A stretch of DNA of 64,000 nucleotides from Verrucomicrobiia bacterium (GTDB lineage Bacteria; Verrucomicrobiota; Verrucomicrobiia; Verrucomicrobiales; DEV007), in assembly GCA_030425385.1 (NCBI GenBank), contig JAUIAH010000030.1:1-64000 (forward strand). The letters run 5' to 3'. The position numbers were made by a program, and so were the translations under genes. How positions within the stretch are numbered: the first letter of the stretch is position 1; every line of letters begins with the position of its first letter. Below the pieces are notes generated by a model. It was not told where the DNA came from and made no database searches. It saw only the letters and a program-made list of their open reading frames with translations. Below, piece by piece: positions 49,965-64,000 of this stretch.

Positions 49965-52442
49965 TCAAAGACTTGATCCATAAGCGGCTGCAAAGATCGC
50001 CAGATCGTCTCCATCGACGTCCCCATCGCCATCCAAATCGGGCGAGTAGAGGCCACCAGCGTTCACATCAATGTAATAGTTGTGAAAGAAGCTCGTGTGA
50101 TAGATCCGTCCAAAGCCATTGGTCGTGCGAGCCCAAGCCGTGAGCCTGAATTGATAGGCACAGGATTCCCAGGGTTGGAGACCGGGTTGCGAAGCGCTCA
50201 AGGGTGTCGCCGGGAGGGGAGACAAGGTTTCGCCTAACCACGTTCCGTCCGCGGCCACGTGATTGGAATAGTTATCGCTCACGACTGTTCCCGCATTCCG
50301 ATTTCGTCCTACCAAGGCGACCATGGCGTAGTTATCGAGGAAGCCTTCGGGATGGTTGGCTGTATAAACGAAATCAAGTGTGGCAGTATCGTTGGGCAGA
50401 CGCACGATCGCACATTCGTCAAGAAGCGCACCATTGTAGGAAACACTATCAATGGTCACCACGGGACGCGTGTTGTTGACGTGAAGAATCAAGTCGTGAT
50501 TGGGACTTAACGTGATGAGGTATGGACTTGGGAATGGGAAGCCTGCCTGGCCCCAAGCTTCCATCCGAATGCTATAGCGTCCGTTTTCTAGTCCCAGCGT
50601 GTTGAGGATCAATCGGAGATTCTCATGAGCCCAGTAGGTGTTGCCACCGTTGAGGGTGGGCTGATAGGTTGGGCGTCCAAAGAATGGTAGGGGGCCGAGA
50701 GTCACGCGTTCGTGCGTGACGGTTCCGCCAGACACGTTGAAACGAGTCTTGGACAGCGGGTCATCGACGTAGTCGAAATCTCCATCGGAGGGCGCGACAT
50801 TGCCGGTCCACTGGGCGATCTTTACGGCATAGCGTGAGATGCCCGTAACATTGTTGCCAAAGGGACCATACAGCCAAGGCTTGCCTCCGAAGGGACGATC
50901 ACGTGAGATGGTGAGTCCACCTTTGGGGCCGTTCGTTTGGTCAATTTCCGAAACGAGAATCGTTCCGACAGAGGTCCAGAGAAAGCCGTTAGGCACGGCG
51001 CCCGGAGTCACCGACGATCCACAGGGGCCGCCCGTGGCGCCGATATCGTTGCGGCTGCCATCCAAGTCATCGTAGATGGCTGCGGGGTCTCCGGCATCAA
51101 TGCAAGGCGATCCCAGGGTCAGGATATAGTCATTCGGGGAGAGTGGATCAAGCTGGGGATCGACGAGGAGATCGCCTAGCTTGCTAACAATGACACCGCC
51201 ACGAATTTCAGAATAGGTGGGGCTATTATCGAACAGGCAGTTGTAGGTGCTCGTCACTACGGAATCATTCTCCGCGAAAACACCTTGAGAGGAATTCACG
51301 GCAATAATGTTGTTCTTCAACTCGGGAGCGCTCCAAGCGGCGTGGAAGCCGCGACCGGCGTTGTCGGCAATCGTGTTATTGATCACACGAGGTGATTTGC
51401 CCGTACCGAGGCTTAGCACCCCGGATTCGTGATTCTGAATCACAAGGTTATTCGTGATGAGATCATTACCTTCGCAGTAGATACCATAGTCCGTCCGGCC
51501 ATTGCTGGCGTTGCCATTGGAATGAATGCGGTTGCCGCAAATGATGGAATTGGAATCCTTCGTACGAATGCCCATGGTATTGTTGGTGATCTCGTTTCCT
51601 TTGATGACGATGGAGCTCGCAATCACGCGAACACCGGAATCTAGTGTTCCCGTGCCACTATCCCGCACGGTGAACCCAGAGAATTCTGCATTGGTTACTC
51701 CGTTAGCGGTAACCACGTCACCAGTGCCTGTCCCTTGCAGAATCGTTTGACCAGGACCAGCACCGACGACATTGACCTCGCTTCGCAAGGTGATGTCTTC
51801 GGTATAGATGCCCGGTCCGACCACGACGGTATCGCCGGGCGCGGCATGGTCGATCGCTAACTGGATAGACCATCCTGGTGCCACGTTGAGATACCGTTCT
51901 CCAGTGATCTGAACCTTGACACCATCGCGGCGAAACGTGCTCAGGGGTGGGTTGGTGCCGTTGGTTTGTTTTACCAGCGGGCAAGGATCAGAAAACTCGG
52001 GGACAGCGTAGAAGAGGTCTGGACTGCCTGGCTGTTTATTGATGTTAAACTTGAAACAGATGGTCGATCCGGGCGTCACCGGAACGTTGCCCATGTTGAT
52101 CGTCACCGCTTTCTGGGTGCCGTCGAGCGTGGCATTGGCCCAGTGAGAGGCTAGCAAAGGTCCGTCATAAGCGTTCTCCGTTGCGATAAGACCAACCTGA
52201 TAGGGCCAGCTGCCAGCGGTATCAGTCGTCATGTAGACGGTCACCCCATTCAGTGTTTGGCCGGGATAGTTTGGAACATAGAAGCCTCGAGAGGTCTGGT
52301 CACCGCCGCTGTCTTTCCCAGGGCAATCGACTAGGGTTGAGATTTGCGCCCAGGCGTTTGCACTGAATGAAGCGAGTAAGGCCGCAAGCAAGGCGGGAAT
52401 CTTTGTGATACGAGAATTTTTAAGTGGTTTCATACTGGTCAT
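49965..52442 (-). CDS. Secreted parallel beta-helix protein with C-terminal dockerin
   Basis: 825 residues from ATG 52442 (ATG at 52433 equally possible); the frame is open to 52730 but overlaps the sigma gene and lacks a leader there. The signal peptide is KIPALLAALLASFSANAWAQ. The centre (about 190-420) is a right-handed beta-helix: APGDTVVVGPGIYTEDITLR, GFTVRDSGTGTLDSGVRVIA, NEITNNTMGIRTKDSNSIIC, NLVIQNHESGVLSLG. The C-terminus PDLDGDGDVDGDDLAIFAAA is a dockerin-type calcium motif. Beta-helices of this kind are polysaccharide-binding or lyase-like surface proteins; no catalytic residues are evident. The small sigma factor gene lies upstream on the same strand, 127 bases away. Confidence 0.82.
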   Translation of the reverse strand: MTSMKPLKNSRITKIPALLAALLASFSANAWAQISTLVDCPGKDSGGDQTSRGFYVPNYPGQTLNGVTVYMTTDTAGSWPYQVGLIATENAYDGPLLASHWANATLDGTQKAVTINMGNVPVTPGSTICFKFNINKQPGSPDLFYAVPEFSDPCPLVKQTNGTNPPLSTFRRDGVKVQITGERYLNVAPGWSIQLAIDHAAPGDTVVVGPGIYTEDITLRSEVNVVGAGPGQTILQGTGTGDVVTANGVTNAEFSGFTVRDSGTGTLDSGVRVIASSIVIKGNEITNNTMGIRTKDSNSIICGNRIHSNGNASNGRTDYGIYCEGNDLITNNLVIQNHESGVLSLGTGKSPRVINNTIADNAGRGFHAAWSAPELKNNIIAVNSSQGVFAENDSVVTSTYNCLFDNSPTYSEIRGGVIVSKLGDLLVDPQLDPLSPNDYILTLGSPCIDAGDPAAIYDDLDGSRNDIGATGGPCGSSVTPGAVPNGFLWTSVGTILVSEIDQTNGPKGGLTISRDRPFGGKPWLYGPFGNNVTGISRYAVKIAQWTGNVAPSDGDFDYVDDPLSKTRFNVSGGTVTHERVTLGPLPFFGRPTYQPTLNGGNTYWAHENLRLILNTLGLENGRYSIRMEAWGQAGFPFPSPYLITLSPNHDLILHVNNTRPVVTIDSVSYNGALLDECAIVRLPNDTATLDFVYTANHPEGFLDNYAMVALVGRNRNAGTVVSDNYSNHVAADGTWLGETLSPLPATPLSASQPGLQPWESCAYQFRLTAWARTTNGFGRIYHTSFFHNYYIDVNAGGLYSPDLDGDGDVDGDDLAIFAAAYGSSL

Positions 52443-52569
52443 GTGGTGAAGATTTGAAGAAGACGCGCGCTCGGTTTGCGGGTCGTTATTTGGACATGCC
52501 GTCCCGGAGGGGGAATTCTCAAAGAAATGCGTAATTCTGTCGGACGGCCGCTTACGTCGGGATGCTGTT

Positions 52570-53133
52570 TCAGCAGTAGAAGTAGTCCAGCCCAACGTCA
52601 TTGGCTTCGAGCGCTTTGCGGATCCTCTTGAGCCCTCGACAAATGCGGGTGGCGACAGTGGCAGGGTGCATGCCATGTTTCTGAGCGAGCTGAGTTCGAC
52701 TTTTGCCGTAGAGGCACCTTTGGGTGACAAGATCGCGGTCGCGTTGTTCGAGATCGGCGAGGGCCGCTTCCCAGTATTTCCAGAAATCTTGCTTCAACAG
52801 CTCATTGATTTGGCCTCTTCCATCTGTCCCGGCGCGTTCCCGTTCGTGTTCATTCTGAGACCACACCTGACAGGACTTCTCACGAGTTCGATACTTGCGC
52901 ATGAAATCGGTTAGTCGCCATTTCGCTCGCTGATAGACCACATTCTTCAGTTTCTGAGGCTCAGTGATGGGCTCCTTCATCTTGGCGACCTCTTCGATAG
53001 ATCGATAAATGATGTCTTCTGCTTCGATCGCACATTCGGCGGGGAGACGTCTTCGAATATCATTGATAATGGTTTCCACTTCGTTCGATAGGAAGTTCTT
53101 CCAAAGTGTCGGCGTGGGCTGCGGGATGCTCAT
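52570..53133 (-). CDS. Small RNA polymerase sigma-70-like (ECF) factor
   Basis: A 187-residue protein with sigma-70 organisation. The region 2-like part (about 35-85) has AIEAEDIIYRSIEEVAKM and NVVYQRAKWRLTDFMRKYRT. The region 4-like helix-turn-helix (about 120-175) has LEQRDRDLVTQRCLYGKSRT and QLAQKHGMHPATVATRICRG. It resembles the planctomycete/verrucomicrobial ECF factors without an adjacent classical anti-sigma. It is followed on the same strand by the dockerin and cohesin-like genes, which may be its targets. It is a different protein from the sigma-like factor at 55.5-56.4 kb. Confidence 0.82.
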   Translation of the reverse strand: MSIPQPTPTLWKNFLSNEVETIINDIRRRLPAECAIEAEDIIYRSIEEVAKMKEPITEPQKLKNVVYQRAKWRLTDFMRKYRTREKSCQVWSQNEHERERAGTDGRGQINELLKQDFWKYWEAALADLEQRDRDLVTQRCLYGKSRTQLAQKHGMHPATVATRICRGLKRIRKALEANDVGLDYFYC

Positions 53134-53250: not shown

Positions 53251-54816
53251 CTAGTACTGAGCCCGAATGCCGATATGTGCTTCGCTACCCGTGCGATTCA
53301 ATCCCCAGCCGTAGTCGAAGAAACCATTCAAATGCTCGGCGATCTGAAGTCGCACGCCAAGTCCGGTGGACGAGAGACGTTCCCGGTCATCCACATCGTT
53401 GAGACCGGTGAGACCACCTTCAACAAAGCCAACAAGTTGAAGCACGCCTTGTCGCCACTCGAAGCGAGGACTCCTCAACTCAAGACTACCCCAAGCTCCC
53501 CAATCTCCCAGGGCGCTATGCTCATCAAATCCCCGGACATTGCGCGCTCCTCCTAAGGATACTTGCTCGCTCGGAAGCAAGCGTTCGCTCGACCATTGAG
53601 CGGCACCTTTCGCATAGAGAGTGGTATCGAAGGGAAGACGCTGCACGCGTTCCATCTGAATCCTAGCGTAATGATAGGTAGACTCGGCGCCGATGTGGCT
53701 TCGTCTAAATGCCGCATCGCTGTTTGCACTGGAGAGATTTCCAGGGCTGAAGAACCAGGTGAGATTGGCTTTGGTAGCTCCCCAAGCGTCTCGCAGCGTG
53801 GCTTCGTAGCCGATGTGGCCTTGAATGATCGCTGTGTCGCTGAATGTCAGGAGATTGCCGAAGACGAGGTCGCTGTCCGCCTGTTTGAAGTCGACACCCA
53901 GAGTCAAGTGATGCGAATATGTTCCTGAGGGATTGCCCTCGAGAGGAATGCGATAGCTTGCGGAGATGCCCCAGTTGGTGCCCTCGATGGAGGTTCCTAA
54001 CAGAGATTGTCGCAGCGCGGTGTCTATGTAATAGGCATCTACCTCCAAGGCGTGCATCCACGGCAGCAAATGCACATATCGCGTGGCCACGCCATGAAAG
54101 TTCTCGAATTCGTCGCTGGCCAAGCCCATCAACGTCCATTGATCTCCCATTCCCCACGCATTTCCCCACTGAAACCCCGCACTGAGTCGGGTCTGCCCTA
54201 ACAGGGCGACTCCGCTGTTGTCATAAGTGGCGAACATGTGAAAGGGATCGGTATCCGCGATCGTTAATTGCAAGTCCGTCGCCCCATTCTCGAACTCATG
54301 AACCTCAGCGGTTGCGGTCAAGTGGGGGTGCTCATTAAGAAAGTCCAATTGCCGGGTCAACTGATGGCCGTTCACGGGCTGCCCGGGCTCCACTCGGAGC
54401 ATTCGCCGTATCGATCGCGAAGTGAAATGATCACCAGCAACAATGAGAACGCGATCCCAATAGGATTCTCGAACATCCAAATGTAGTCGACCGCGATCCA
54501 AGGGTTGCTCCGGGACGCTGACATCGACTGGGCGTTCGTATTTGGCGAAATGATCGGCCACCGTTTGCGCGATCACCTGCGCAGTATCTGGGGTGACGTG
54601 CTCTCCCAGGAAGGTCTCTAAAGTACTTCGAAGACGTTCAGGCTTGGGAGGGGTCAATTCGTGGAAGGTCACGTGATCGACTGAAGAATCGTCTTTCGCA
54701 CCGCCTCCGTGCAGACGGATGATGCTGAGGGGTGGCGTCTCCCTATCGGTGCTGGACTCACCATACACCCAGACGCAAGTCAGACAGAGCAAGAAGATCA
54801 GACGCGCCAGCACCAT
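53251..54816 (-). CDS. Two-partner secretion outer-membrane transporter (TpsB/ShlB/FhaC family)
   Basis: A 521-residue Omp85-superfamily protein. A signal peptide (LARLIFLLCLTCVWVYG) is followed by a POTRA-like region (TLETFLGEHVTPDTAQVIAQ; VLIVAGDHFTSRSIRRMLRV; LDFLNEHPHLTATAEVHEFE) and a C-terminal 16-strand barrel from about residue 195. The barrel includes the conserved VSLGGARNVRGFDEHSALGD (the VRGF/Y motif of strand L6) and ends with an aromatic C-terminal residue (IGIRAQY). TpsB proteins translocate a partner TpsA carrying a haemagglutinin-type TPS domain; a TpsA-like gene lies 1.7 kb away. The start codon directly abuts the stop of the anti-sigma-like gene (TAGATG). Confidence 0.9.
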   Translation of the reverse strand: MVLARLIFLLCLTCVWVYGESSTDRETPPLSIIRLHGGGAKDDSSVDHVTFHELTPPKPERLRSTLETFLGEHVTPDTAQVIAQTVADHFAKYERPVDVSVPEQPLDRGRLHLDVRESYWDRVLIVAGDHFTSRSIRRMLRVEPGQPVNGHQLTRQLDFLNEHPHLTATAEVHEFENGATDLQLTIADTDPFHMFATYDNSGVALLGQTRLSAGFQWGNAWGMGDQWTLMGLASDEFENFHGVATRYVHLLPWMHALEVDAYYIDTALRQSLLGTSIEGTNWGISASYRIPLEGNPSGTYSHHLTLGVDFKQADSDLVFGNLLTFSDTAIIQGHIGYEATLRDAWGATKANLTWFFSPGNLSSANSDAAFRRSHIGAESTYHYARIQMERVQRLPFDTTLYAKGAAQWSSERLLPSEQVSLGGARNVRGFDEHSALGDWGAWGSLELRSPRFEWRQGVLQLVGFVEGGLTGLNDVDDRERLSSTGLGVRLQIAEHLNGFFDYGWGLNRTGSEAHIGIRAQY

Positions 54817-55548
54817 CTATTCATCCGGTTTCTCTTCCAGAGCCACCAGCACGAGGCAGGCGCGTTTGATGGCATCGATGGATTCGTAAACGCTTGCTGG
54901 ATCGATGGGCTCGCCATCTGTTTCAGGTGCGAAGGAATCTTGCACCTGACGAGTGGTCACGCTTGGCGCAAGTCCTCGAACCGTCTGGTTCCTCTCGTCG
55001 ATGACGATATGGATAGACTCAAACTGGTCGTCGATAATGGTGAAGAGGGCGTCATCAGATGAAGCGCTCCTAACGTCTTCCCCATTGAGCCAACTGGCTT
55101 CTAACGTCTGCTGAAGCGTTTCCGAATCGACAAAGGTGTAGACGACGCCACGATCCGATTCTTTCTGAGAAAGCCCGTGCCCGCGAAACTCTGACCACGA
55201 CACGTCGCGCTCTCGGACAGGCAGGGCGGCGAATAGGCCGATGGCGATGACTGCTGCGGTCGCCATTCCAGCGAGGAATGCGGAGCCGGAACGGCGCCAC
55301 CACGATGGCGACGTGGAACCCACGATGGGTTCAGAACTCGGGAACCGCTGGTCGAAAGCCTGCCGAATCGGCATAGGTACGGGCGGCACTTCGGCAGTGA
55401 TTTCCCGCTCGTGCGCTAAGCCACTTTCTTCCTCTGCCAAAGACAGGAGGCTGCGTGCAGGCGACGAAAGACTGCCTCGCAAGTGGTCTCGCTCCTCGCG
55501 TGCCTCATCGGTAGTCGGTTGCCGATTCATCAGTGTTTCTTTCGACAT
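54817..55548 (-). CDS. Membrane protein in anti-sigma position
   Basis: 243 residues from ATG 55548, which overlaps the preceding stop by one base (TAATG); longer frames lie inside the sigma-like gene. The cytoplasmic N-terminus (about 1-80) is hydrophilic. One transmembrane segment follows (AFLAGMATAAVIAIGLFAAL, about residues 95-114). The periplasmic domain of about 130 residues has a FecR-like beginning (VSWSEFRGHGLSQKES, VVYTFVDSETLQQTLEASWL, IIDDQFESIHIVIDERNQTV). Topology and position directly after a sigma-like protein suggest an anti-sigma factor, but no zinc (HxxxCxxC) motif is seen. It is coupled to TpsB without any spacer, so it is expected to connect secretion status to transcription. 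Confidence 0.65.
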   Translation of the reverse strand: MSKETLMNRQPTTDEAREERDHLRGSLSSPARSLLSLAEEESGLAHEREITAEVPPVPMPIRQAFDQRFPSSEPIVGSTSPSWWRRSGSAFLAGMATAAVIAIGLFAALPVRERDVSWSEFRGHGLSQKESDRGVVYTFVDSETLQQTLEASWLNGEDVRSASSDDALFTIIDDQFESIHIVIDERNQTVRGLAPSVTTRQVQDSFAPETDGEPIDPASVYESIDAIKRACLVLVALEEKPDE

Positions 55549-56432
55549 TACGCGAGATGCCCCGTTTCTTTCAAGGAATGTGCAAGTTTCTCCAGAGCGC
55601 CTTCCATGCGCTCTTTCAGGTGGCGTCGGCGGCTGATGGCCGAGAGATGGAGCCCAATCCCCAGTTCGTCCAAGAGTTGTTCGTTCTCGATCAATTCCGT
55701 GTCCGTCTCGCCGACCACGAATTTCCGCGTGACCAGCGTCCATTCTGGTCCGGTGAGGGATTCGGCGCATTCAAATTGAATCCTAGCAAACGTCAAACCG
55801 GGCTGGAACTGCAAGCTTTCCTCATCGACTTCCTCGAGCTCGGCGGATGGCCTGAGTTTGCGGAGTTGCCGCTTGGCGGCGAAATGCACGATCCGGGAAA
55901 AGAACGGGAAGACTTCCTCAAACACCCTGATTTGATCCAGTGGCGAGAGGCCGTCGCGCTGTCGTGGTCTGTAGAGCTCTGTCAGGCTCTTTGAATACAC
56001 GTCATCTTTGTCTTCCTGGCTGAGTTCCTTGAAGGGCTTGAGAACGGCGTAGCCACACGGGCGCAACGCCTCGTCCAAGGCTGCCCATTCATCGGCGTCC
56101 ATCGATTCAGGAGGAGGCTGCAACTTTCGCAGATCCAGGTTGCGTTCGTGCGCGCCTCCATGGCGGAACTGTTCGAAATTGTTAGTGTCTTCGCGGCGTT
56201 TCGTAACATGATCCAAGGCCAGTTCACGAGCCCAGGTGGTGACCGCAGCTAGAAACTCGGATTCGCTTGGGAGGTCATCGAACTTGTCGAGAAAGCGCTC
56301 AAATCCCGCTGTCAAGAGCTCGACCACTGTGTCCATCGGCAGAGACACCGTGCCTGGTGGGGATGGTTTGCAAGCGACCCGACAAGCTAACTCCCATGCT
56401 TTGGCTAGGAGATCGTGCTTGCCGCGGCTCAT
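55548..56432 (-). CDS. Sigma-70-like regulatory protein with two region-2-like segments
   Basis: A 294-residue protein. Near residues 40-100 a segment SEFLAAVTTWARELALDHVT followed by KRRED resembles the -10-recognition helix of an ECF region 2. A second similar segment occurs at about 145-205 (KSLTELYRPRQRDG...FFSRIVHFAAKRQLRKLRP). The C-terminal HTH-like end is LDELGIGLHLSAISRRRHLK with ERMEGALEKL, where region 4 would be. This duplicated layout is atypical, so assignment as a sigma factor is moderate. It is first in the operon with the membrane anti-sigma-like protein and TpsB, and divergent from the TpsA-like gene, 53 bases apart. Confidence 0.62.
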   Translation of the reverse strand: MSRGKHDLLAKAWELACRVACKPSPPGTVSLPMDTVVELLTAGFERFLDKFDDLPSESEFLAAVTTWARELALDHVTKRREDTNNFEQFRHGGAHERNLDLRKLQPPPESMDADEWAALDEALRPCGYAVLKPFKELSQEDKDDVYSKSLTELYRPRQRDGLSPLDQIRVFEEVFPFFSRIVHFAAKRQLRKLRPSAELEEVDEESLQFQPGLTFARIQFECAESLTGPEWTLVTRKFVVGETDTELIENEQLLDELGIGLHLSAISRRRHLKERMEGALEKLAHSLKETGHLA

Positions 56433-56485
56433 CGTTAGGCGTTATTAGGTCTGAGGAATCCGTGGCTGTCACGAACAAATTGATA

Positions 56486-57658
56486 ATGACGTGGCACTCG
56501 GTGACATGTGATCGCGTGAACGTTCTTGTGCAAATCCGACTACTTGCTCTGCTTGGCCTAACGGCTCTTTCCCATCACTCATTGGTTTACGGCCAAGATG
56601 GCGATATCAGTGAGGTGTGTAGCCGGATCGCCCGCGAAGCCGCTAGTTATACTTGTAAGACCAACGCTGCGGGAGATCATACCACCATTGAGATTGCCCG
56701 TAGTGGTATCATTCAGTGGCAAGACTTTCGCGTCCCGGAAGCGCACACGCTTGAGTTCGTCTTCCAAGAGCCGTCACAATGGGTGGTGAACCAAGTGGTG
56801 TCTTCCGCAAGGTCCTTTGTGTTAGGCAAGGTGGTGGCGAATGGAAAGATCGCCTTGATCAATCCGCAGGCTCCGATCGAAGTTAGGTCGGAGATTCGTG
56901 CGGATGAGGTGCTCTTGGCAACGGCAGACGTGGCGCCGGAGACGGTGTTTAGCCGAGAACAAGTGATCACCTTTCATCGCGTGGATTCCTCGGCTAACAA
57001 GGTGGTGGTCAATCGCGATGGAGCCATCATTTCGGACCGAGGCGACCTCACGATCATTGCTGGCGGCACCTTGGGCAATGACGGGCGCCTTGAAGCGGCG
57101 CACTCGTTGCGCTTGACCACGTTTGGCGACAACACGCTTTCGCCGAATGGCTCAGACGCTTTCAAACCGAGTGGCGACCGGGGCTACGGGTTCGTCCATC
57201 GTGGTTCGCTTCAGGCCGGCACGCGTTACCGAGAGGGGATCATCGAGATCGATGTCTTGGCGATGACGCTCAACGGAGCCATCATCGGTCCAACGAAGGG
57301 CACCATTCTTGTGCAAGCCGAATCCATTCGAAACGAGCCAGGCGCGATCTATCGCGGACCACCGGTGAGCAGCGTCTTTATCAGTGCTAGGAACGTTCAA
57401 GGAGCGCTGGGCTTTCAGCAAGATGATGGAGCAAACCCGTCCCGGCTTCCCAGTTTGGCCGTGCTCTCGCGAGGCAACCGGACCATTCGACGGATGCAGC
57501 CGATGAATCCCGCCAGGTCCGTGAGCGCTAGGCCCATCGCCCAATCGGTTGAGAAATCAGACCAAGAACGTAGGAAGCTCATTGCGCGGTCCACACGCCG
57601 ATTCTCCCAGGTGTATCGGCAATCCACTCAGCGCTCCCGTGCTCCAAAGCGCCGGTAG
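56486..57658 (+). CDS. Mini TpsA-like protein (haemagglutinin TPS domain)
   Basis: 390 residues from ATG 56486; GTG codons at 56516 and 56528 are alternatives, and the longer frame back to 56267 overlaps the sigma-like gene. After the signal peptide (LVQIRLLALLGLTALSHHSL), residues about 55-170 form a TPS-type beta-helix domain: SGIIQWQDFRVPEAHTLEFV, VVNQVVSSARSFVLGKVVAN and GKIALINPQAPI, equivalent to IINWQSF...VLNRV...ANG.V.LINPNGI of FHA-like TpsA proteins. More helix-like turns follow (GDLTIIAGGTLGNDGRLEAA, GTILVQAESIRNEPGAIY). The C-terminal 50 residues are strongly basic (RRKLIARSTRRFSQVYRQ). Ordinary TpsA proteins are several times longer. It is the expected substrate of the TpsB encoded nearby. 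Its 3' end overlaps the CHAT gene by 31 bases. Confidence 0.8.
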   Translation: MTWHSVTCDRVNVLVQIRLLALLGLTALSHHSLVYGQDGDISEVCSRIAREAASYTCKTNAAGDHTTIEIARSGIIQWQDFRVPEAHTLEFVFQEPSQWVVNQVVSSARSFVLGKVVANGKIALINPQAPIEVRSEIRADEVLLATADVAPETVFSREQVITFHRVDSSANKVVVNRDGAIISDRGDLTIIAGGTLGNDGRLEAAHSLRLTTFGDNTLSPNGSDAFKPSGDRGYGFVHRGSLQAGTRYREGIIEIDVLAMTLNGAIIGPTKGTILVQAESIRNEPGAIYRGPPVSSVFISARNVQGALGFQQDDGANPSRLPSLAVLSRGNRTIRRMQPMNPARSVSARPIAQSVEKSDQERRKLIARSTRRFSQVYRQSTQRSRAPKRR

Positions 57659-60036
57659 ACCATGAATGGCGCGGCAGCGACGAGGGTCTCGCGTTCCGCG
57701 TAGAGGCGTTGGGTTTCCCACATGGCCTGGGAGGCGGACGTTCCCTCGCCGCTCAACTGGTTGTAGAATACTTCCATCAACGCTCGAGTTTCCCGATCGT
57801 TGATGCGCCACATGGTCAAGAGAACGTTGTTGGCGCCGGCAAGCGTTAGGGCTCGGCCAAAGCCGGAGATGCGTTCGCCACCCACATCGATACCATCAGC
57901 GGATCGGCAGGTGGAAAGCGTGACGAGGTAGGTGCCGTCGAGCGTTAGCTTCGCTGCCTCAGTCGGGGTAAAGAAGTGGTCCTGTGAGGACTCTAGCGGA
58001 TTCCCTTCTTCAATCGCTCGCACAGATTGCTCGACGCCTTCTTGAATGAGGCAGTACGAATCGGCGATCAGGTCATCAAGAGGGGGCTCTACAGTCATCC
58101 CATGAGTGATGATGTGAAGGAGACTTGGAGCGCTTTCCAGATGATTGACCATCTTGAGGCGGGTCATTTGGAAGCCCTGCTGGGTGCCGATTGCTTGCAG
58201 GTCAAGCCATTCGCCATGGGCGTTCTTCAAATCTCCCAAGCCGCTCATGGCCTGACGGATGGCGGATGGCGGATCGCGCCGCGCGACCGTAAAGCGCTCG
58301 GCTGCGTAAACCGCCCAGGTGCCATCCTCTGGCTTCGGCACTGCGGGAATGAGCAGGTCTCGGGTGGCCATGAGCATGATCCCAGATGCAAACTGCTGAC
58401 AAAGATAATTGCCAGTCTCTCTCTCTCGCAAAGACGCAAAGGGCAAATTTCTAAGGAAACCGTCAGGACAGATGAAGAGGTGATTCGCATTGTCAGGCAA
58501 TTGCGGGCGAATTGGGAGCCAGAGCGCATCACTAATTCTCGCCATGCGAGTGCTGAAGGCGGAAGGAGAATCTAAGGGCAAGGCGTCGACCTGCGACTCC
58601 AAAGCCTGTAAGTTCGAGTCGGTGGCACAGACGGTCCAGTGAGGGTCTCCGTCTGACCCAAGGATGATCGCCCCCAGGGCATCTTGACCTGAGAGTGTTC
58701 GATAGTGAACGAAGTCGACTAGCACACTCCTGCTCGGCAGGCTTTCCTGCACCGCGGTCCAGTGCACTCGCAGATCGCGCGTGGGTGGCGTATCCGCCTG
58801 TTCCCGCAGAACTGATTCGATGATCACGCCTTTCCACGTGAAGAGGGCATCTGCTAGGAGTGGCTCTATCAGAGGGGTCTCGTCGGCCAGTTCAGCGAGG
58901 AATCCGATGAGATTGCGATCCGTGTGAAATCGTCTTCGCTCAGTCTCGGTGCCAGTGTGAAGGACGGCCTCAACCAGTTGCTGTCCCAGGTCAACTGCTG
59001 CCTTGGCGTGAATGTGAGACGCTGCGAGATCTCCAAGCCTAGCCTGACAATAGGCCTGATTCTCAAGGATCTCCATGTGAAGCTGGCGATAGTTTCCCGG
59101 GCTCTCGCCCAAATGGCCGCTCGCCTTTTCCAAAGCATCCCAGGCATCACTGATCCTTCCAAGTCGCATGAGGACGAATCCAAGGTTGTTGTAGACAGGT
59201 GCCAGCAAGGGCTCGCGTTGACTATCAGAAACGGCTGCCAAACTTGACTGCAAGAGCGCTTCCGCGGCCAAGTCGTTCTGAGTGTTGATCAGTTGTTCTG
59301 AGAGGACATGATTGGCCAAGACGCGGTCAAGCGGTGACAACGCACGCTTATCTAACAGTGACTGAAAGGTTTCTCCCCATTCTCGGGATGCCCGTGGATC
59401 GTCCGCTCGCAAAGCGGTCAGCAGGAGGTCCGAAACCACGGCAAGTTGATCACCATCATCGGCAAGTTCATAGGCCTCTCGTAGCAGGCGTTCTGCATTC
59501 TTGTAGTTCTTCACTTCATGCCAGTAACGGCTGAAGCTTAGCCGCACGAGCAACCCTAATCCGGATGCGGAAGAATGGCCGTCCTCGCGAACACGGTCCG
59601 ATCCAGAGAGGGCGTGCTCGAATGCCTGATGGGCTTCATCCAATGCTCCGGTAGCTAGCTTGAGCAGTCCTAGCTGGCACTGGGCGCGTGCCCTCACAAA
59701 CGCATCATCCGAAGTGGAGAGGATGGATTGGAGGAGGCGGTCTGCGGCGTCGACTTGCTCCAAATTGAGGTAAGCGTCCACCAAGTTGGAAGCGCAATCA
59801 TGGCGAGCCTTTCGAGGCGCGTCGGCATGTTCAAGCAGGATCGACGCCTGCTCGAGAGTGAGGACTGCCCGCTCGGGATCCTCGTGAAGCAACAGCGCCC
59901 CCTCATCCGCGAGGGCGAAAGCCTGAGCCAGTTCGGCTGTCATCGGCGGGCCTTCTGCTTTCTCTGAACGATGACATGAAATCAGGAGGAGCACGAAAAG
60001 CGCGCTGCATTTGATCAGCCTATCAAGGTTTCTCAC
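57628..60036 (-). CDS. CHAT-domain (caspase-like) lipoprotein with TPR repeats
   Basis: An 802-residue protein. The N-terminal CSALFVLLLISC gives a lipobox with Cys21, so it is probably anchored in the outer or inner membrane facing the periplasm. Residues about 30-420 are TPR-like helical repeats (RAQCQLGLLKLATGALDEAH; PVYNNLGFVLMRLGRISDAW). The C-terminal CHAT domain (about 430-800) has the caspase-type dyad: His645 in LLHIITHGM and Cys710 in LVTLSTCRSADG, plus GFGRALTLAGANNVLLTMWR and FYNQLSGEGTSASQAMWETQ. CHAT proteins are cysteine proteases of the separase/caspase clan. The start lies within the end of the subtilase gene (14-base overlap), so they are coupled. Targets are unknown; neighbours suggest the TPS exoprotein or surface proteins. 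Confidence 0.88.
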   Translation of the reverse strand: MRNLDRLIKCSALFVLLLISCHRSEKAEGPPMTAELAQAFALADEGALLLHEDPERAVLTLEQASILLEHADAPRKARHDCASNLVDAYLNLEQVDAADRLLQSILSTSDDAFVRARAQCQLGLLKLATGALDEAHQAFEHALSGSDRVREDGHSSASGLGLLVRLSFSRYWHEVKNYKNAERLLREAYELADDGDQLAVVSDLLLTALRADDPRASREWGETFQSLLDKRALSPLDRVLANHVLSEQLINTQNDLAAEALLQSSLAAVSDSQREPLLAPVYNNLGFVLMRLGRISDAWDALEKASGHLGESPGNYRQLHMEILENQAYCQARLGDLAASHIHAKAAVDLGQQLVEAVLHTGTETERRRFHTDRNLIGFLAELADETPLIEPLLADALFTWKGVIIESVLREQADTPPTRDLRVHWTAVQESLPSRSVLVDFVHYRTLSGQDALGAIILGSDGDPHWTVCATDSNLQALESQVDALPLDSPSAFSTRMARISDALWLPIRPQLPDNANHLFICPDGFLRNLPFASLRERETGNYLCQQFASGIMLMATRDLLIPAVPKPEDGTWAVYAAERFTVARRDPPSAIRQAMSGLGDLKNAHGEWLDLQAIGTQQGFQMTRLKMVNHLESAPSLLHIITHGMTVEPPLDDLIADSYCLIQEGVEQSVRAIEEGNPLESSQDHFFTPTEAAKLTLDGTYLVTLSTCRSADGIDVGGERISGFGRALTLAGANNVLLTMWRINDRETRALMEVFYNQLSGEGTSASQAMWETQRLYAERETLVAAAPFMVYRRFGARER

Positions 60037-62893
60037 GGACAGTCACACGAAAGAATTGTCGAATGGCAGAAGGCGAGGTGGAGAAATCGTAGCGCATCTG
60101 TTTCATCCCACCAGACATTCCAGTTTCACTCCAGGTGCCTCCGAGAAGAGGTAGCCATAGGTTGATGTTAGGAGACCATTCGGGCAAAAGATCACGTGGG
60201 GTCACATGTGCGGCAGCTTCAAACTCGAGGAAGCCATTCGTGCCCTCTCTGCCAGTTTGAAATTTCCAAGGCACAAAGTCGGCGTGAGTGGGATTGCTTC
60301 CCGTGAGAAACTCCATGCCATTGGTGATGGTATCGCCATCTCCATCCAGGCTGAAATCTGGACTAGCAAGCCCCCAACGGGCTTGCCATAACGCTATGCG
60401 ACTGCCGGATGCATTGAGAAACTGATAGGTGGTCGACCCATCGGGAAGTGGCGCGCACCATTCGTAGCGATCCGATCCGCATCCAGCGGTAAGCAGCCAG
60501 TTGCGAATGGCCGATGGGTTCCGGACCGGCGGGCCTGACTTTCGCTCCGGTGTATCGGCTAACAGGCGGACCACGACTCCTGCCACCAATGCCGCTGCCA
60601 TGCTCGTTCCACTGTTGGTGGTGCCACCGATTTGGAGGCCTTGACCCGGAGCCCAAAGATCGACTTCATCACCGTAGTTTGTCAGGGTATAGGGTTGGTC
60701 GATCGGATTGCGGGTTGCGCCGACCACGAGCATGTTGTCGTGCAAGCCAGGAGATTCGGCGGCCGAACGGAAAGCCGCTGGGTAGTAGCCGCCGCTCCCG
60801 TTGCGAACGGGGCCCGCATTGTTGCCAGCGGTGACGATGACGACGGCAAACCCAGCCAAACATTCAAGGGCATCTCGAATCGAAATGAGGGAAGCGTCTA
60901 GCGAGTCCGTCTTTTGGTTTTGAAAGGGGATGCGATGTACCGTGGAGACGGGCATGAGGACGACCGGCAAGGTTGCTGCGACTTTATCCACGCCCACCTC
61001 ATCGTCGGAGGCGATGCCAGCCCACTTGCTTTCGGTTCGGCAAAGGCCCGCGTAGACGGCCGAGCCATAGGCGTGATGGGGATCCGTGCCACTTGGCGGG
61101 AGGGCTGGAAAGACGTTGACGGGATTAGTACCCACGGCAATTCCAGCGGCCACTCCAATCGTTTGGGCGACAGCAAGTGAGGTGACCTGCGTGGCGTGTT
61201 CTGCCGGAGCCTTGGAACTTGCGGCGGTGGGAAGGGAGGTGTCGCCAGATGGACTGCTCTCGTCTTCCGTGCTTTGCACTTGGTGGAATAGGGCGGGGGA
61301 AAAGCTGGGCGACAGGCTCGGATCACCATCAATGACAAACAAGACGGCGGGATTGGGAGTCGACTGACTGGTATGAGTACCCGGCGTCGCGTTGATGGCC
61401 TTGCGGAACCAATCGCTCCCAGCGATACTGGCCATTCCAGCCGTGCGCTCGAATTCAAGCTCCTCACCAGCCAAATCAATTCTGGGATCCATGAAAGGCA
61501 AACTGACAATAGCACTGCTTGGAAACCAGGCGCCCCCAACGGCCCGGGTCGTGCCGCTTGGTACTGCGGTGTACGGATAACCGCCCAAGCTAAGGATGCA
61601 CTTGAAGATGTCCTCTGCCGCTAGCACTTCACCCTTCTTAAACGCAACGAGGGTGGGTACATAAGCACTGTCATTCTTCCCATGGTAAACAGAATCGCCA
61701 TAGCCCACCGCGAGTCGATCGGACGAGATGTCAAGGGCACCACATTCAAAGAAGGCTTTGGGAGGGAGTTGCTGGACAGACTGCAATCGGGCAACCGCAT
61801 CGTAACGCAATAGCGCGACGCCTGTTAAACCCAAGGTATATCCTAACGGAAAGCTCCATTCATCCTCGAAGGTGATCAACACCACCACCTGACGATCAAA
61901 CAGGGCAATGTCGAGTGCGCGGAGCTTACCATGACGGCCTTCGCTAGTGCCAATGGGCTTGCTCCCGATGGGCTTGCCATTGGGCAAATGATAGGCAAAT
62001 AGTGAGGCCTCTGTAGCACTAGACGAGATGACCCAGACAGTCTCGCCTTCGGTCTGCGTCACATGCCGCGTGTGCACCTCCGGGCGTTCCGTGCCCAATG
62101 ACTCTACCCAGCGAAGGGAGAAAGAGGATGAGGCATCGAACGCCGCGACAAATCCGTCGTCCTGACCCGCCGCGTTTAATGGAGTGCCTTCAATCAGCGG
62201 CTTTCCAACGTATCGACCCGAGACCACGACATACTCTCCCTTGGGACCGCAATCGATCTTCTCGCCCACCAATGTGCTCCCATTCAATTCTAACGGAGCC
62301 CATTTCTCTGGGGGCCATGCTGGACATAGGCTAGCGACATCATAGCCTGACACAAAGGTTGAATCCTCAGTGTTGTCACCGTATCCAGAGGGCCCTACGC
62401 CGGTGGTCATCAGCCAAGGGCCGTTGTCAGTGATCAGGCAGCCGTCGTAGAGTTCTCCTGGGGTGAGTTCTCGGCAATGCTCCTCAAACAGTCCCAGCCG
62501 CTTCTCAATGGTTGCGATGAACCCGGTGGTGTCGCCGGTCAGTGGCTCCGCCCCGCCGAGCACGTAGTAGTGCTCAGCGCTCGGGGAGAGACAGAGCGCA
62601 TTCACTCGCCGATCAAATTCCATGGAGGCACAGATGTCGCCGCTACAGTCAATCTCATCCACCGCCCACCGTTCGTTTCCTCCTTCAGTGAATCGCGACG
62701 CCACCAAGAAATTGCCACTGCTTAACGATAACACATCGACAACTTTCGTGTCGGTCCGCTGGGGATTGACGGCACACCCCTTCAGTTCCAGAGGTTGTCC
62801 GTAGCACATTCCGATCCCTGCGGCCACGCTCAGAAAAGCCATGAGCAGGTTGAGTAACCGTGCATGCCTTCGATTTAAGGGGTCAGTGATCAT
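60023..62893 (-). CDS. Secreted subtilisin-like (S8) protease with N-terminal propeller-like domain
   Basis: A 956-residue protein with a signal peptide (LLNLLMAFLSVAAGIGMCYG). Residues about 35-475 look like a WD40/propeller-type beta structure (VVDVLSLSSGNFLVASRFTE; ALCLSPSAEHYYVLGGAEPL; YVVVSGRYVGKPLIEG). The S8 domain spans about 505-790, with Asp522 (LFVIDGDP), His566 (AEHATQV), oxyanion Asn691 (VIVTAGNNAGP) and Ser764 (NSGTSMAAALVAGVV). All catalytic positions are present, though Asp and His sit in non-standard contexts (DGDP, HATQ rather than DTG, HGT). The C-terminus has DGDGDTITNGMEFLTGSNP and a beta-sandwich ending QFFRVTV. It is upstream of and overlapping the CHAT gene. Start at 62893; promoter region 62894-63148. 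Confidence 0.85.
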   Translation of the reverse strand: MITDPLNRRHARLLNLLMAFLSVAAGIGMCYGQPLELKGCAVNPQRTDTKVVDVLSLSSGNFLVASRFTEGGNERWAVDEIDCSGDICASMEFDRRVNALCLSPSAEHYYVLGGAEPLTGDTTGFIATIEKRLGLFEEHCRELTPGELYDGCLITDNGPWLMTTGVGPSGYGDNTEDSTFVSGYDVASLCPAWPPEKWAPLELNGSTLVGEKIDCGPKGEYVVVSGRYVGKPLIEGTPLNAAGQDDGFVAAFDASSSFSLRWVESLGTERPEVHTRHVTQTEGETVWVISSSATEASLFAYHLPNGKPIGSKPIGTSEGRHGKLRALDIALFDRQVVVLITFEDEWSFPLGYTLGLTGVALLRYDAVARLQSVQQLPPKAFFECGALDISSDRLAVGYGDSVYHGKNDSAYVPTLVAFKKGEVLAAEDIFKCILSLGGYPYTAVPSGTTRAVGGAWFPSSAIVSLPFMDPRIDLAGEELEFERTAGMASIAGSDWFRKAINATPGTHTSQSTPNPAVLFVIDGDPSLSPSFSPALFHQVQSTEDESSPSGDTSLPTAASSKAPAEHATQVTSLAVAQTIGVAAGIAVGTNPVNVFPALPPSGTDPHHAYGSAVYAGLCRTESKWAGIASDDEVGVDKVAATLPVVLMPVSTVHRIPFQNQKTDSLDASLISIRDALECLAGFAVVIVTAGNNAGPVRNGSGGYYPAAFRSAAESPGLHDNMLVVGATRNPIDQPYTLTNYGDEVDLWAPGQGLQIGGTTNSGTSMAAALVAGVVVRLLADTPERKSGPPVRNPSAIRNWLLTAGCGSDRYEWCAPLPDGSTTYQFLNASGSRIALWQARWGLASPDFSLDGDGDTITNGMEFLTGSNPTHADFVPWKFQTGREGTNGFLEFEAAAHVTPRDLLPEWSPNINLWLPLLGGTWSETGMSGGMKQMRYDFSTSPSAIRQFFRVTVREKP

Positions 62894-63148: not shown

Positions 63149-64000
63149 ATGCTCATGATAAACCGGAACCCACTAGACCACAAGCTCGACGCGCATCGTC
63201 CTACCCTTAGGCGATGCCGTAGTAGACTCATCTTTGCCATTCATCGCATCGCCTTGGCGCTTGCGCTTGCCGTGTTTGGAAATTTCCCTGCGAAGGCGCA
63301 GGACACCAGCCAAACCTCGGTGGCGCTACGCATTTCTGGCGAGCACTCCGTTGCCCACTATCCTTTCTCAGTCGTCACACCCGGCAAGATCGTCGCTGAG
63401 ATTGATTGGTCAGGCAAAAGCGAGAAGCTTCAAGTGAAACTGCTAGGCCGTCGCCGATCAGATCTTGCTGATCCGACGGCACCCTACGCTGAGGTTTCTG
63501 GTGGCTCGCCTCTCCAACTCGTCTATGAAGTCACCCCTGCCGAGATGGCACGTGGCACGAGTTGGCGCTTGGTCATCGAGGACCCGACCGTCACCGGAGA
63601 CGCGGCGATTAAAGTGAACCTGACGATTCCCACGGATAAGGAATTGCAGGCTCAGTTCGAGAAACAGAAGATCTCGTTGCGGAGTGGTGATTTCTTGCCC
63701 ACAGCGAAACTTCAAGAGAGCTTCTTGAACGCGCTTCCCGCCGAGAAGAACGGTGGTCTCCACGGCCTCATCGTCTTGCAACGGGCCGTCAGCTGCGAAG
63801 AGATTGAGTTGTTGGATCGAAAAGGCATCCAACGGCAAAGCTTTCTCAATCAGCGCCAGTCGGTTGGCCTGGTGCGGCAAGGCGTCAATTTGAAAGACCC
63901 GCAACTTGCCCGATTGGTGAAATGGATACTGCCACTGGAACCCGAGGACAAGATCGATCCTGATGTATTGCTAGGCAACTTTGCCAAGTTTGAGCTCGCG
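63149..64000 (+). CDS. Secreted protein, N-terminal part only (runs off window), possibly a subtilase
   Basis: An open frame starts at ATG 63149 and is still open at the window edge (284 codons seen). An ATG at 63155 is also possible. A signal peptide (FAIHRIALALALAVFGNFPA) is followed by a beta-rich domain resembling pre-peptidase or PPC-like modules (SVALRISGEHSVAHYPFSVV; VAEIDWSGKSEKLQVKLLGR; WRLVIEDPTVTGDAAIKVNL). From about residue 190, GGLHGLIVLQRAVSCEEIEL and LLDRKGIQRQSFLNQR, then LVRQGV, recall the propeptide-like region that precedes S8 domains in secreted subtilases. The catalytic part is outside the window, so the protease assignment is a guess. It is divergent from the propeller-subtilase and CHAT operon. 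Confidence 0.6.
   Translation, partial: MLMINRNPLDHKLDAHRPTLRRCRSRLIFAIHRIALALALAVFGNFPAKAQDTSQTSVALRISGEHSVAHYPFSVVTPGKIVAEIDWSGKSEKLQVKLLGRRRSDLADPTAPYAEVSGGSPLQLVYEVTPAEMARGTSWRLVIEDPTVTGDAAIKVNLTIPTDKELQAQFEKQKISLRSGDFLPTAKLQESFLNALPAEKNGGLHGLIVLQRAVSCEEIELLDRKGIQRQSFLNQRQSVGLVRQGVNLKDPQLARLVKWILPLEPEDKIDPDVLLGNFAKFELA

Follow-up and report, generated by a model that had tools for sequence, protein, structure and literature searches.

A minimal two-partner secretion pair encoded with a divergent ECF-type sigma factor and two predicted exported proteases in a conserved locus of Verrucomicrobiales

Six adjacent genes in the analyzed window, a 64,000-nucleotide stretch of contig JAUIAH010000030.1 from a Verrucomicrobiia bacterium (assembly GCA_030425385.1), very probably form one functional unit, and are best explained, with a probability of roughly 0.55, as a minimal two-partner secretion (TPS) system that has a sigma/anti-sigma switch of its own and is accompanied by two exported proteases. 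A previous sequence-only reading of the window had proposed one extracytoplasmic system at this position; the gene association proved to be conserved and the sigma and TpsA folds were confirmed, whereas the protein proposed as anti-sigma factor showed no anti-sigma domain. The features of the locus are as follows:

53251..54816 (-), TpsB, ShlB/FhaC-type outer-membrane transporter, 521 aa (Pfam ShlB, 1.1e-21)
54817..55548 (-), single-pass membrane protein, putative anti-sigma regulator, 243 aa (one transmembrane segment and position beside sigma)
55548..56432 (-), divergent ECF-type sigma factor, 294 aa (AlphaFold fold; domain matches below cut-off)
56433..56485, 53-base divergent intergenic region between TpsA and sigma (TpsA at 39/50 sigma loci)
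56486..57658 (+), minimal TpsA, 390 aa (signal peptide, TPS beta-helix, disordered basic tail)
57628..60036 (-), exported TPR-CHAT protease with lipobox LLISC, 802 aa (Pfam CHAT, 2.4e-34, with TPRs)
60023..62893 (-), exported subtilase (S8) with N-terminal extension, 956 aa (Pfam Peptidase_S8, 2.4e-11)

The locus is compact, and a check of open reading frames and junctions against the window sequence found all of the coordinates, overlaps, and junctions reported earlier to be correct. The sigma and anti-sigma-like genes meet at TAATG, in which the sigma TAA shares its A with the next ATG at 55548, and the TAG of the anti-sigma-like gene is directly followed by the TpsB ATG at 54816 (TAGATG). 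The TpsA gene is divergent from sigma, with 53 bases between the two starts, and convergent with the CHAT gene, their 3′ ends overlapping by 31 bases; the CHAT start codon is a GTG, and the start overlaps the subtilase end by 14 bases. Inspection of the divergent intergenic regions by eye revealed no sigma-dependent promoter common to them. Domain searches of the whole 8.0-Mb genome recovered CHAT, TPS, and ShlB in one copy each, all at 53.3–58.6 kb of the window, which argues that the locus did not come together by chance. Both flanks carry further genes of note. On the TpsB side, window positions 49965–53133 (-) encode a sigma factor that is clearly of ECF type (Sigma70_r4_2, 1.6e-8), whose gene (52570–53133) follows TpsB on that strand after 117 bases, and then a right-handed beta-helix protein; this sigma factor had no match in the same genus, and neither gene was retained as part of the unit because neither was found in its relatives. 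On the other side, a divergent 2011-aa protein is encoded upstream of the subtilase from window position 63149 (L047, 3150–9185, (+)), and a relative of this protein in the same-genus genome G002 is 61–83% identical.

The association of the six genes was kept in related genomes, as a neighborhood comparison proposed in the sequence-only reading had asked. ShlB and CHAT were common among 115 related genomes and mostly lay apart, yet pairs within 7 kb were observed 6 times against 0.5 expected, and five of these six loci show the gene set of the unit. A phylum-wide search of 388 genomes with a profile of the window sigma protein recovered 10, every one from Verrucomicrobiales; within the order, 44 of 387 genomes have the sigma family, and these represent four families and 14 of the 50 genera. 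At the 50 sigma loci, the anti-sigma-like gene adjoins sigma at 47, and TpsA was found at 39, CHAT at 25, S8 at 24, and TpsB at 20; all six genes occur at 18 loci in four families. Several contigs end inside the unit, which explains some of the 25 loci that lack CHAT nearby. Gene orders are shuffled among loci, from a single operon of sigma, anti-sigma-like, TpsB, S8, CHAT, and TpsA (L037) to the window order with the subtilase alone inverted (L034). TpsA, where present, is mostly divergent from and adjacent to sigma, and the TpsA/sigma intergenic region is the junction most often kept besides sigma/anti-sigma. When the genes are split within a genome, a TpsB, S8, and CHAT block and a TpsA, sigma, and anti-sigma-like block tend to persist (L151, L153, L158); CHAT genes away from sigma thus often stand beside S8 and TpsB, or beside a TpsA (L147, L154), and some copies stand alone. 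Variable order, and divergent blocks that could be transcribed independently, would be expected of a chance neighborhood of unrelated extracytoplasmic genes, but the 18 complete loci, the six-gene operon, and the excess of CHAT-ShlB pairs leave this explanation almost no probability, and chance clustering was ruled out by the conservation.

CHAT was detected in 18 of 22 sigma-positive genomes searched, as exactly one copy in 17, and was missing from four; among the 115 relatives, it occurs in 9/9 sigma-positive versus 34/106 sigma-negative genomes (p = 8e-5, a statistic that ignores phylogeny). In three genomes of the same genus, TpsB, CHAT, TPS, and sigma are all missing together, and in an empty-site comparison G002, of the same genus, has the flank of the locus, but its contig stops there. 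The cultured species Haloferula rosea carries the unit. Two other CHAT arrangements were seen: in genome G402, which also has the sigma gene of the unit, a TpsB and a TPR-CHAT protein of a distant second kind are encoded next to each other (L157, 6527–10642), and G063, of the same family, encodes 12 CHAT domains and has no detected match to the sigma family of the unit, CHAT having apparently expanded separately in its genus.

Profile searches suggested in the sequence-only reading gave clear matches for ShlB, TPR-CHAT, and Peptidase_S8, a TPS match just under the cut-off, and a marginal one for sigma (Pfam Sigma70_r2 at only 0.068; NCBIfam sigma70-ECF at 7e-6, below cut-off). The AlphaFold model of the sigma protein (pLDDT 85) contains both sigma2 and sigma4 domains, and its top PDB matches by Foldseek were ECF sigma factors, specifically SigmaE-RseA, SigW-RsiW, SigL, and SigH, at a probability of 1.00 or near 1 and E values above 0.01 (0.016); the sigma4 domain of 3hug was matched with a TM of 0.68. 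The predicted fold thus confirmed the protein as a divergent ECF-type sigma factor, in line with its earlier description as sigma-like. Its membrane partner consists of an N-terminal part of ∼90 aa, a transmembrane segment at residues 91–109, and a C-terminal part of ∼130 aa with a predicted periplasmic location; a single transmembrane segment was found in 10/10 relatives tested. What had been described as an anti-sigma-like membrane protein is therefore a conserved single-pass membrane protein; it had no match in Pfam or NCBIfam and hence no known anti-sigma domain, so it is called anti-sigma-like only, and the putative anti-sigma role is drawn from its position and topology. At one locus in G089 (L038, 3784–5016), a gene for a Ser/Thr protein kinase shares 4 bases with the start of the sigma gene, and a kinase gene also lies close to the Acaryochloris locus L094, described below.

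The TpsA protein is short and, in the AlphaFold model, consists of a signal peptide, a TPS beta-helix that extends to about residue 305, and a disordered basic tail at residues 311–390. The first 23 PDB matches of the model by Foldseek were TPS secretion domains or proteins carrying one, the best being the secretion domains of HMW1, EtpA, HxuA, HpmA, and FHA, and the earlier assignment as a TpsA-like protein of ∼390 residues was thus upheld. By profile, the window TpsA falls just under the Pfam TPS cut-off (3.1e-7; 31.0 bits vs. 33.5) and below that of NCBIfam adhes_NPXG (2.6e-6; 27.3 bits vs. 29.1), whereas the L043 TpsA, at 33.6 bits, passes the former; the NPxG motif is degenerate, reading NPQA in the window and NPTG in L043. 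Viral contigs searched with TpsA gave no match. Genus g2, of the same family, represents the opposite extreme to this 390-aa protein, with TPS-domain proteins encoded by open frames of up to ∼8,900 aa.

Because TpsA carries no large passenger, its tail is likely the working part. In most relatives, the tail is closed by a (R/K)xSFFGxRGG-like motif, and SFF or SLF was found within the last 40 residues of 36/39 TpsAs versus 2/411 other open reading frames used as controls. Searched for as a strict DNA pattern, the motif was matched at one place in each of five genomes and at two in a sixth, a TpsA gene being among the matches in every one; a general sorting signal was ruled out, since the motif is near-unique per genome. 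The window TpsA has a degenerate version without SFF, its C-terminus being a plain basic tail, so a model in which the tail is recognized may not hold for this copy. The partner TpsB has an ShlB match above cut-off, an N-terminal hydrophobic segment taken as its signal peptide, and a weak POTRA match (0.18). In a quick tree, to be read with caution because of its long branches, TpsBs of the unit grouped with one another and separately from 25 ordinary TpsBs found in the order. As the genome encodes only one TpsA and one TpsB, TpsA is likely exported by the TpsB of the unit.

Both proteases bear export signals and intact catalytic residues. The CHAT residues H645 and C710 were invariant in 10 relatives, as were the catalytic Asp, His, and Ser and the oxyanion Asn of the subtilase. 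CHAT proteins of the unit have signal peptides or hydrophobic N-termini, and many relatives have a C-terminal membrane helix; a lipobox is present in the L034 copy and in the window copy, as expected from the earlier description of the latter as a CHAT lipoprotein, and some members have neither lipobox nor C-terminal helix. On the basis of lipobox or hydropathy, the CHAT protein is predicted to be membrane-anchored and to face the periplasm.

The most economical reading of these parts would be a sigma switch that is informed of the secretion substrate through proteolysis. TpsB would export the small TpsA, that is, the TPS secretion domain and its disordered basic tail, and the TPR-CHAT protein, together with the subtilase, would recognize the tail in the periplasm; the proteolytic step would be relayed to the anti-sigma-like protein, which would bind sigma and, on this signal, release it for transcription of the unit, and the export state would thereby set expression. 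The periplasm, which TpsA must cross, is also the predicted location of the CHAT protein and of the C-terminal part of the anti-sigma-like protein. This specific relay, from TpsA tail to CHAT and subtilase and on to anti-sigma and sigma, is put forward tentatively and is judged less likely than not.

The same genes could serve exoprotein maturation only: CHAT and subtilase would process TpsA or free its tail peptide, either at the surface or in the periplasm, while sigma would regulate the unit without a proteolytic signal. Exoproteins are commonly matured by subtilases, the S8 and CHAT genes remain beside TpsB even where sigma is elsewhere (L151, L153, L158), and the conserved motif of the tail might mark a site of cleavage or anchoring; TpsA, however, offers little passenger to mature and is linked most tightly to sigma/anti-sigma, at 39/50 loci, rather than to the proteases, and we regard maturation alone as rather unlikely. 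Less likely again is a conflict or regulated-death system, in which CHAT would be an effector triggered by a surface or invader signal and the TPS pair a sensor or delivery device. The CHAT and subtilase proteins bear export signals, which cytoplasmic effectors do not, the unit encodes neither a nuclease nor an NTPase switch and has no immunity gene, and PADLOC models run against it matched nothing except a generic subtilase, although CHAT and caspase-like proteases are frequent effectors of bacterial conflict systems and presence of the unit is patchy within the genus. Other points in its favor are a Nostoc plasmid locus that combines DUF1822, CHASE2-CHAT, TPS, ShlB, and TPR-CHAT, and the EACC2-caspase class, for which an ECF sigma factor and DUF1822 are described in the relevant passage of PMC8195603.

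If the preferred reading, a secretion pair with its own sigma switch and two exported proteases, is correct, caspase-like CHAT proteases would be periplasmic partners of a secretion pathway, and two-partner secretion would gain a link to a dedicated sigma switch. CHAT proteases are known mainly as cytoplasmic effectors. The conserved TpsA tail tag is a concrete candidate substrate, and with Haloferula rosea in culture the question is open to direct testing. It is conceivable, though we consider it doubtful, that the unit represents a new class of secretion-coupled transmembrane signaling: a membrane-anchored, exported TPR-CHAT protease of the caspase clan would read the C-terminal tag of a passenger-free TPS substrate and switch on its dedicated ECF-type sigma factor, and cyanobacteria would have a parallel version.

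Among known systems, the unit resembles two-partner secretion (type Vb; HMW1, EtpA, HxuA, HpmA, FHA) in its ShlB-type TpsB and the TPS-domain fold of its TpsA, but this TpsA is barely more than a secretion domain with a tagged disordered tail and a degenerate NPxG motif, and the dedicated exported CHAT and S8 proteases and the sigma/anti-sigma pair set the unit apart. Its CHAT protein shares the TPR and CHAT architecture and the His/Cys dyad of Craspase and the gasdermin-cleaving CHAT, which are cytoplasmic TPR-CHAT effectors, whereas that of the unit is exported and predicted to be membrane-anchored. No description of CHAT combined with TPS/ShlB, or of the unit itself, was found in the open-licence literature, and the sequence-only reading likewise knew of no system of this composition. 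In PUMA3 of Pseudomonas aeruginosa, the ECF pair VreI/VreR switches on a nearby TPS pair (PMC2729926), and an ECF sigma factor and a membrane regulator thus lie near a TPS pair, as in the unit; its input, however, is the TonB-receptor-like VreA, its TpsA is large, CHAT and subtilase are absent, and the likeness is one of arrangement. EACC2-caspase systems, which combine DUF1822 with an ECF sigma factor and a caspase, likewise tie a caspase-clan protease to an ECF-type sigma factor, whereas TPS, ShlB, and TPR-CHAT are not mentioned in the passage of PMC8195603 that concerns them, and the window proteins had no DUF1822 match in Pfam.

Parallels are also found in cyanobacterial loci of Nostoc sp. 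UHCC 0302 (L093), Acaryochloris (L094), and Pseudanabaena (L095), in which TpsA, ShlB, and an exported TPR-CHAT protein are encoded close by one another; these loci differ in that S8 and the SFFG tail are absent, the sigma and anti-sigma-like profiles gave no match, and CHASE2-CHAT and DUF928 proteins occur instead. The Nostoc locus, on a plasmid (L093, 5678–19616), comprises a sigma-like open reading frame, DUF1822, a CHASE2 protein that itself bears a CHAT domain, DUF928, a large TpsA, ShlB, TPR-CHAT, and a small TpsA of 385 aa, downstream of DUF1822 and with a C-terminus that resembles that of the large TpsA. The sigma-like protein and DUF1822 were rejected as homologs of the sigma and anti-sigma-like proteins of the unit, as neither matched by profile. 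Given the parallel TpsA/ShlB/TPR-CHAT arrangement, the unit seems to belong to a broader class that has apparently not been described.
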